The position numbers and the translations under genes are program-made. From NCBI RefSeq assembly GCF_024397975.1, contig NZ_CP073745.1:3312501-3376500 (forward strand): a stretch of 64,000 nucleotides of DNA. Reading direction: 5' to 3'. Below the pieces are notes generated by a model. The model searched no databases. It was not told the origin of the DNA and was given only the letters and a program-made list of their open reading frames with translations. Position 1 is the first letter of the stretch. Each line of letters opens with the position of its first letter. This document shows positions 3,203 through 4,903 of this stretch, one piece after another. The stretch comes from Bacterioplanoides sp. SCSIO 12839. Lineage in GTDB: Bacteria > Pseudomonadota > Gammaproteobacteria > Pseudomonadales > Oceanobacteraceae.

Positions 3203-3991
3203 ATGCGCCATATCGTTGTTTCTCTTTCCGCTGTTCTTCTCGCAGCCAGCACTCTGCTGGCTGGTTGCAGCAGTTCTCGCTATCAGCACTCGCAAGATTT
3301 TACGCCCGCACCAATCGCCGATGTTCAGGCACTAAAAGAACCAACTCCCAGAATTGAAGCAAAGAGTGTGATGGGCAACCCCAAGCGTTACACCGTGTTG
3401 GGCAAAGAGTATCAGGTGATGGACAGTGCAGACGGCTACAGCGGTCGCGGTATTGCTTCCTGGTATGGCATGAAATTTCATGGACATCAGACCTCCAATG
3501 GTGAGATCTATGATGTTTATCAATTCACTGCCGCTCATAAAACACTGCCTTTACCCAGCTACGTTCGTGTTACCCGCCTGGATAACAACCAGTCTGTGGT
3601 TGTCCGGGTGAACGACCGCGGGCCTTTTCACGAGGGTCGCATCATCGACCTTTCATACGCGGCTGCCGTCAAGCTGGGGATCCACAAGCAAGGTACCGCT
3701 AACGTTCAGGTCGATGTCATTCATCCGCCAAAGAATCAATCCGAACGCTGGGTTCAAGTAGGGGCATTGTCGGATCCAACGGCGGCTAAAAAGCTACAGC
3801 AGCGCTTACAAACAGAATTAGGCAGTGATACTCAGGTGGGTGTTACAACCGTGAGGCATTCACAACAGCTGACATTGCACAAAGTCAGGATTGGCCCGGT
3901 TGAAGAAGGCGAACCATTACAGGCATTACTTCAACGTTTACAGGCGATGAACATCAACCAGCCATTACTGCTGGCGCGCCACCAGCTCTGA
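3203..3991 (+). CDS. rlpA: RlpA, septal-ring lytic transglycosylase lipoprotein
   Basis: Outer-membrane lipoprotein that cleaves naked glycan strands and localises to division sites. I place the start at the ATG of 3203, one base after the mltB stop, because it gives a clean lipoprotein signal with lipobox LLAGC; an upstream in-frame ATG at 3158 lies inside mltB. About 262 residues. The double-psi beta-barrel domain is seen from GRGIASWYG through VRVNDRGPFHEGRIIDLS (approximate residues 80-165), and a C-terminal SPOR domain begins near RWVQVGALSD. Pseudomonas RlpA with the same layout has lytic activity. It is the last gene of the mrdA-rodA-mltB-rlpA unit here; dacA, often next in other genomes, is absent. 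Confidence 0.95.
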   Translation: MRHIVVSLSAVLLAASTLLAGCSSSRYQHSQDFTPAPIADVQALKEPTPRIEAKSVMGNPKRYTVLGKEYQVMDSADGYSGRGIASWYGMKFHGHQTSNGEIYDVYQFTAAHKTLPLPSYVRVTRLDNNQSVVVRVNDRGPFHEGRIIDLSYAAAVKLGIHKQGTANVQVDVIHPPKNQSERWVQVGALSDPTAAKKLQQRLQTELGSDTQVGVTTVRHSQQLTLHKVRIGPVEEGEPLQALLQRLQAMNINQPLLLARHQL

Positions 3992-4008
3992 GAAAATAAA
4001 AAGCGGAT

Positions 4009-4041
4009 AAAAAAGGGGCCATAACCACAAGGGTTAGGCCC
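4009..4041 (-). terminator. Rho-independent terminator of the ccoM-like gene
   Basis: Read on the minus strand, GGGCC-T-AACC pairs with GGTT-A-TGGCCC around a short loop and is followed at once by a run of six T. It lies about 100 bases beyond the stop of the small minus-strand gene at 4145-4264. The stem could also slow plus-strand transcripts from rlpA, but the T run is on the minus-strand side. Confidence 0.8.
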
Positions 4042-4144
4042 AGAGGCAAGGTACTCACTCAGAGAGCAAGATGCTCAGCGCAGAAAAGGAAACAACCTCA
4101 GATGTCACGACTGCGAGCGTGGCACCCGGTTTTAAAAGCGTTAG

Positions 4145-4264
4145 TTATTCGCCGGTGCCGTGCTTTTTGATGTCATTTTTAACGGCCAGGTAAAAGCCTA
4201 CAAAAAAAGCACAAGTCAGCCCTACAATGGCTAAACCAGCAAATACCACTTCATCCATAAACAT
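4145..4264 (-). CDS. ccoM: CcoM-like cbb3 cytochrome oxidase small subunit (39 aa)
   Basis: A 39-residue frame too short for usual gene callers. It starts MFMDEVVFAGLAIVG, runs through one hydrophobic helix ending FFVGFYLAV and finishes with a charged tail KNDIKKHGTGE. A single transmembrane helix after a short MF-x-D-x-VV start matches my memory of the CcoM small subunit of Pseudomonas stutzeri cbb3-type oxidase, which supports assembly or stability of the complex. A strong GAGGTGA ribosome site lies 6 bases before the ATG. Two FNR/Anr boxes lie upstream and a terminator downstream, so it is a one-gene unit, as expected for a microaerobic oxidase part. The ccoNOPQ genes are not in this window. 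The reading frame is sure; the name is probable. Confidence 0.8.
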   Translation of the reverse strand: MFMDEVVFAGLAIVGLTCAFFVGFYLAVKNDIKKHGTGE

Positions 4265-4328
4265 AATGCTCACCTCTCTCTCGTATTTTTGTGTACTGGT
4301 GGAAACACCAGCTCAATTGCTATGCAAT

Positions 4329-4370
4329 TAATTTAGCAGCGACGGCAGAGGTGAACTTGATACATATCAA
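4329..4370 (-). promoter_or_regulatory. FNR/Anr box and promoter of the ccoM-like gene
   Basis: Bases 4357-4370 read TTGATACATATCAA, an exact match to the FNR/Anr consensus TTGAT-N4-ATCAA. The box centre is about 41.5 bases above a predicted start near 4322, and a TAAATT element sits at the matching -10 position on the minus strand (about 4330-4335). This is the geometry of a class II FNR-activated promoter. The transcript start is inferred from spacing alone. Confidence 0.85.
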
Positions 4371-4406
4371 GGGATTTTAGTCGTAACCAAGGACCCGGAT
4401 ACAAGC

Positions 4407-4420
4407 TTGATACAAGTCAA
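4407..4420 (-). promoter_or_regulatory. Second, upstream FNR/Anr box
   Basis: TTGATACAAGTCAA differs from the FNR consensus by one base in the second half-site. It lies exactly 50 bases above the first box, centred near -91.5 relative to the inferred ccoM start, a position known for class I or tandem FNR sites. From here to 4597 I see no gene, only A-rich sequence with three copies of CATACAAA. Confidence 0.7.
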
Positions 4421-4597
4421 ATGGCCATACAAAAACAAAGGGAATGGTATATTACTTGCTGAGCATACAAACAAGCATCATACAAAAGGTGAAAAGAAAC
4501 ACGAGTAGTTTGATGACACCATGTTCAGTGATTGGGCGTGCATACTTTAATCGCACCATCATATTGCACACCCAATTATCAATCAGGAACTAAAACG

Positions 4598-4903
4598 TCA
4601 GGCCATGACCACCTGGCCACGGTAAATTTTTTGGGTACGCTTAGCCGTCCGGGCAGCATCATCCACAACATATGCGGCTCCACGATACATCCTGGGCTCA
4701 GTTGTAAATGCCGGAGAAGGCTCCTGAGAAGGCAAAAAATCTTCGATCAGGGCTAATAGAGCCGGGCTGACACCACTTTGCACCAGCGTTCGCAGATCAT
4801 GCTCCAGTGTTGGCGAATCATAATGAATAATGCAACCCTGCTCTTCTTTGGCAAGACGTTTGATTTTTTGCAGAGTAGCGATACTTTGGCGGTTAAATTC
4901 CAC
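4598..4903 (-). CDS. Small unknown protein with two YRG motifs (DUF4278-like?)
   Basis: 101 residues. The GTG start (4901-4903) is chosen for a GGAG ribosome site 8 bases upstream. The N-terminal half is a predicted helical, charged region (QKIKRLAKEEQG...). The C-terminal 35 residues hold two spaced motifs, MYRGAAY and IYRGQVV. Paired YRG-x-x-Y motifs recall the short DUF4278 proteins, but that is a tentative resemblance from memory. No signal peptide or membrane helix. It lies about 50 bases beyond the end of the GT4 gene and may share its transcript. Function unknown. Confidence 0.6.
   Translation of the reverse strand: MEFNRQSIATLQKIKRLAKEEQGCIIHYDSPTLEHDLRTLVQSGVSPALLALIEDFLPSQEPSPAFTTEPRMYRGAAYVVDDAARTAKRTQKIYRGQVVMA

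Follow-up and report, generated by a model that had tools for sequence, protein, structure and literature searches.

Tandem FNR boxes precede a predicted stand-alone ccoM gene in Bacterioplanoides sp. SCSIO 12839

The minus strand of a 606-base gap, bounded by the rlpA stop codon (3991) and the next open reading frame (4598), holds a compact transcription unit that, judged by its sequence, is a stand-alone gene for CcoM, a known protein family, behind a pair of FNR boxes. The gap belongs to a 64,000-nucleotide stretch of Bacterioplanoides sp. SCSIO 12839 (NZ_CP073745.1, positions 3,312,501 to 3,376,500; hereafter the window). We propose that this ccoM serves a cbb3 oxidase and is activated by FNR in class II fashion, with the distal box tuning expression to a micro-oxic peak; we put the probability of this whole explanation at about 0.45. 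CcoM is already known, and its promoter is the new part. FNR control of cbb3 oxidases is established, and tandem FNR sites have also been described (accessible part of PMC11264516). Within the accessible parts of the literature on CcoM with cbb3, Anr and FNR, no description of the ccoM promoter was found, an absence that is weak evidence. The locus offers a clean, testable case of a tiny accessory subunit whose oxygen control is seemingly stronger than, and differently shaped from, that of the enzyme. It is also a natural and widespread test bed for a tandem-FNR logic described at yfiD and in artificial promoters (PMC11264516, in its accessible part).

Organization of the transcription unit

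Read directly from the minus strand of the gap, the unit comprises two FNR boxes, an extended -10 element, a ribosome site, a 39-codon open reading frame and a terminator (Table 1). The first-pass annotation had described two FNR boxes 50 bases apart with the nearer one perfect, a TAAATT hexamer at class II spacing, a ribosome site and an intrinsic terminator; all were recovered at the same places, the offset between the boxes being exactly 50. The ATG is at 4264 and the stop codon ends at 4145. An in-frame GTG lies 9 bases upstream of the ATG, and a start there would give 42 residues.

Table 1. Features of the ccoM transcription unit, in window coordinates
Feature	Positions	Strand	Basis
ccoM, 39 codons + stop (MFMDEVVFAGLAIVGLTCAFFVGFYLAVKNDIKKHGTGE)	4145..4264	-	CcoM model, PDB chain match, pN < pS
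Proximal FNR box TTGATATGTATCAA, perfect, centre about -40.5/-41.5	4357..4370	-	sequence; good box in 33/33 family promoters
Distal FNR box TTGACTTGTATCAA, centre about -90.5/-91.5	4407..4420	-	sequence; second box in 32/33 family promoters
-10 hexamer TAAATT, with TGC ahead (4338-4336) forming the extended -10 TGCTAAATT (4338-4330)	4330..4335	-	TANNNT at offset 35
Predicted transcription start, about 4323	4322..4324	-	inferred from -10 and class II geometry
Ribosome binding site AGAGAGGTG	4271..4279	-	sequence
Intrinsic terminator, GC-rich stem GGGCCTAACC/GGTTATGGCCC then T6	4009..4041	-	sequence; RNAfold

The terminator stem, which is bulged, folds in RNAfold and is absent from a simple terminator scan. 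Terminator-like elements lie 3' of ccoM in 31 of 33 family members, by a home-made criterion applied without a shuffle control. A simple scan for sigma-70 promoters returned zero in 3800-4700; the missing -35 element fits an activator-dependent ccoM promoter and is proof of nothing. Some 100 untranslated bases separate the ccoM stop from the terminator (4042-4144) and carry predicted structure, again computed without a shuffle control; the segment could possibly be a small RNA. With coding bases included, two congeners shared a leader hairpin, but this was not kept across 33 leaders and was discarded.

Identity and distribution of CcoM

The 39-residue protein matched the NCBI CcoM equivalog model NF041600 over all 34 model positions (1-34) at 61.1 bits (cut-off 40), and its residues 1-34 aligned with chain N of PDB 5djq, which is 36 residues long (E=3.9e-4). 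That chain, labeled in the PDB as 'putative uncharacterized protein', we take to be CcoM of the Pseudomonas stutzeri cbb3 oxidase. The CcoM-like assignment made at first pass is thus borne out by alignment with known CcoM, both at a curated cut-off and against the structural chain. The accompanying remark that such short frames escape standard callers holds only in part: NCBI already has a model for the family. Pfam gave just two matches, both sub-threshold DUFs. Across the first 33 codons, comparison with a same-genus relative yielded pS 0.70 and pN 0.05, and comparison with eight chosen relatives pS 0.58-0.86 and pN 0.05-0.23, the pattern expected, by codon comparison, of a translated frame. 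The protein shares with Pseudomonas stutzeri CcoM its length, a single hydrophobic stretch, an MF-x-D start and the 34-residue alignment, and differs in a longer, charged tail (KNDIKKHGTGE). The original paper, published in mBio in 2016, reportedly assigns CcoM a role in cbb3 assembly or stability.

Within the source genome's family, CcoM was found in 33 of the 34 genomes. Of 55 relatives, 38 gave a match, 37 of these exceeding the cut-off; across the order the count was 110 of 391 genomes (101 exceeding it), and in a class-wide draw 4 of 370 (3 exceeding it). Among the 55 relatives, 36 had both CcoM and ccoN, 13 ccoN only, 2 CcoM only and 4 neither; the two CcoM-only assemblies are 81% and 71% complete. 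This co-occurrence is suggestive and not significant alone (Fisher p=0.066). The position beside rlpA is partly conserved, with rlpA inside the 1.5 kb flank of ccoM at 21 of 32 other family loci.

Conserved promoter geometry

A good FNR box (score <=1) was present upstream of ccoM in 33/33 family members, which are related genomes and not 33 independent events, and at 76 of 92 other loci; shuffles gave means of 0.6 for the 33 family promoters and 1.0 for the 92 other loci. With strict scoring, 28 of the 33 family promoters carried a box pair spaced 49-51, whereas 100 rounds of dinucleotide shuffling of the same promoters produced 0 pairs at 49-52. When a mismatch score <=2 was allowed, a second box lay 49-51 upstream in 32 promoters, the one remaining having a weak second box at 60. 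This within-family comparison supports the tandem FNR control put forward at first pass.

The spacing of the boxes to the core promoter is equally constant. In 33/33 family promoters TANNNT lies at precisely 35 bases, counted from where the proximal box begins, as the proposed class II spacing would require, and 29 of them have an extended -10 (TGNTANNNT); on sequence grounds, this fixed offset is class II FNR promoter geometry. The distance from FNR box to ccoM ATG ranges from 78 to 194 bases. Among 21 family members with spacing 50, identity is 89% in the box cores against 31% in the spacer, a contrast that is partly built in because boxes were chosen by consensus match, which does not apply to the fixed spacing. 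That the geometry is kept while the inter-box spacer varies indicates selection.

Outside the family, second boxes at 49-52 number 18 among the 76 anchored ccoM promoters (from a set that omits G595, G509, the class hit G249 and the second copies with low scores in seven genomes, and counts G754 with two loci); a few more stand at 32 or 61, and many loci have one FNR box only. A distal box scoring <=1 was present at 2 of 17 f21 loci, whose proteins resemble Pseudomonas CcoM by eye. At five promoters outside the family (L092, L096, L102, L256 and L265), two boxes stand 32 bp apart, or three helical turns.

The oxidase genes and their FNR box

A single ccoN in the genome exceeds the cut-off (744 bits); it lies 1.8 Mb from ccoM and is accompanied by ccoO, ccoP and ccoG, all above cut-off, and a metal P-type ATPase. 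An FNR gene lies in the same 18 kb stretch as ccoN. Its product scored 318 bits with the FNR model (cut-off 228), the sole other match in the genome reaching 50 bits, below cut-off. The protein contains CxxCx5C, a later Cys and ExxSR; the cysteine arrangement we take to be that of an iron-sulfur oxygen sensor, and the meaning we attach to ExxSR is likewise presumed.

Position -286 of ccoN bears a degenerate FNR box, TTGCGTTATATCAA (L043 11192-11205, minus strand), whose left half is defective (TTGCG..ATCAA). A first scan had come back empty, and the notion of an oxidase operon with no FNR box at all was given up when a lower threshold revealed degenerate boxes at -266 to -321 of ccoN in 26 of 32 family genomes; three of these boxes (G019, G024 and G029) score 2.5, and those of G019 and G029 are not the best-scoring there. 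TANNNT lies at offset 35 in 26/26 of these promoters, and an extended -10 in 0/26. The six genomes left out of the count are five of one genus, whose ccoN box lies at about -91 to -94 and finishes in TCAC or TCAT, and G033, in which no box was found at that ccoN region. The predicted ccoN leader measures roughly 220-275 bases.

Within the family, both promoters thus place a -10 at one and the same distance from an FNR-type box, whereas that of ccoN differs in its single defective box, long leader and lack of an extended -10. The ccoN box is perhaps a deliberately weak FNR site. From these box patterns, FNR probably acts on both genes, through a single weak site in the ccoN promoter and a strong pair in that of ccoM, and CcoM and the oxidase seem to have separate FNR inputs. 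The suggestion that the cell sets the amount of CcoM separately is strengthened by the distant location of ccoN and its differently built promoter.

Proposed regulation and alternatives

In the reading we favor, CcoM would be a one-helix subunit in, or assembling, the distantly encoded cbb3 oxidase. As oxygen falls, FNR would bind the proximal box (about -41) and activate the weak extended -10 promoter, while a second FNR dimer, some five helical turns upstream on the distal box (near -91), would down-tune this class II activation. CcoM would peak at an intermediate, micro-oxic tension, where the oxidase is of use, and be restrained in full anoxia, a condition under which the cell may turn to nitrate respiration; its supply would be governed by an FNR input separate from, and stronger than, that of the oxidase core. 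The micro-oxic peak is predicted from the position of the distal box near -91, within the range in which FNR represses in E. coli.

The closest parallel is E. coli yfiD, where the activating FNR site presumably lies at -40.5, giving a box spacing of 53. There the FNR site at -93.5 lowers expression even when the activating one is occupied, and in artificial melR-based promoters a second FNR site between -85 and -95 strongly represses (PMC11264516, accessible part). The ccoM and yfiD promoters alike have two FNR sites, the near one class II and the far one about five turns upstream (compared with the accessible part of PMC11264516). The ccoM spacing of 50-51, however, is 2-3 bp short of that at yfiD, and the gene is unrelated. 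Other observations also weigh against the favored reading. Judged by mismatches, the proximal box surpasses the distal in 14 of the 33 family promoters, matches it in 11 and falls short in 8; affinity thus follows no fixed order, unlike in a simple low-to-high occupancy switch. In P. stutzeri, aerobic cells contained more CcoN and CcoP than oxygen-limited ones (PMC10433244, as far as accessible). The co-occurrence of CcoM with ccoN falls short of significance, and at ccoM loci outside the family a box scoring <=1 is lacking in 16 of 92, with a single box at many.

A serious rival, which we rate as credible though well short of even odds, is that the distal box acts as a second activator: FNR near -91 would contact RNA polymerase alpha, giving strong anoxic induction with no optimum. 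Tandem CRP sites near -41 and -91 are known to co-activate. The ccoM spacings, mostly 50-51 with a few at 32 and 60-61, are near whole helical turns, so that both FNR dimers would face one side, and the -10 region mostly leans on an extended -10, so further activation would be useful. Against co-activation stands the strong repression reported for a second FNR site between -85 and -95 (PMC11264516, accessible part), which instead speaks for down-tuning.

It is improbable that the distal box only increases FNR occupancy locally or makes the oxygen threshold sharper with the maximum unchanged: the inconsistent order of box quality would suit such a role, but a mere local concentration effect would not need the 49-51 spacing seen in 32/33 promoters. 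That the frame encodes some other small membrane protein is very improbable; short one-helix proteins do match weakly and Pfam offers only sub-threshold DUFs, but the curated equivalog match is far above cut-off and joined by the PDB chain match, 36 of the 38 genomes with CcoM have ccoN, and the promoter is of FNR type.

A further and rather unlikely reading makes CcoM an oxygen-dosed regulatory subunit. The tandem FNR promoter would then let through only a micro-oxic band, and the fraction of cbb3 enzyme with CcoM, together with oxidase assembly or stability, would change with oxygen independently of the core, itself under one weak FNR site.

Paired FNR boxes elsewhere

The 3.9 Mb genome contains 30 sites with a strict FNR box (TTGAYN4RTCAA), against 4 for the reversed-pattern control, and a single strict pair with a gap of 20-50, at ccoM (control 0). 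With a gap of 22-52, exactly one strict pair was found in 24 of the 34 family genomes, at ccoM in 23 of these 24 (the exception being G006); outside the family, 4 of 21 genomes had pairs, none at ccoM, and the reversed pattern gave pairs in 0/55 genomes. Fifteen of the 30 genomic sites were fetched, and three stand beside narX-, narL- and narK-like ORFs, named by eye.

A wider scan of the genome collection for tandem boxes returned at least 119 stretches. Clustering of the downstream ORFs among the matches listed assigned 25 of 119 to ccoM, 23 to cydA, 9 to copper nitrite reductase, 5 to an OmpW-like group and 4 to ccoN. When one member of each of the last four kinds was scanned, cydA, nitrite reductase and ccoN exceeded their cut-offs, while the OmpW-like member fell below (223 bits vs 287). 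A cluster of 35 loci had the look of GC-rich frames overlapping one another and was not used. Also among the matches listed, tandem boxes precede closely similar CcoM proteins, by eye, in Thalassolituus, Oleispira, Oceanobacter and a Saccharospirillaceae MAG, and 17 of the 119 come from records that carry the name Pseudomonas and have a strict pair ahead of ccoM. Paired boxes before ccoM are thus common to some members of Pseudomonas (at least 17 records), and pairs also precede other genes; both the device and its placement at ccoM extend beyond the family.

The idea that tandem boxes 50-51 bp apart mark high-affinity oxidases generally held only partly. Among the matches listed, the cydA group (cytochrome bd oxidase) consists of 22 Vibrionaceae and one Azotobacter; the Vibrionaceae boxes are 50-51 bp apart (L116, L119, L122, L125, L134 and 17 other loci). 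TANNNT at the class II offset was present in 0/22 of the listed Vibrionaceae pairs, which argues that they work differently; they are possibly a repressing pair. Tandem FNR-type boxes also lie near copper nitrite reductase at nine loci (L105, L117, L148, L155, L166, L171, L188, L197 and L203), six of them from Pseudoxanthomonas. In the source genome, two FNR-like boxes 22 bp apart that are mutual reverse images (L305/L306, G000:C1:1597110-1597145) lie between a receptor-like gene, so named by eye, and a divergent ORF.
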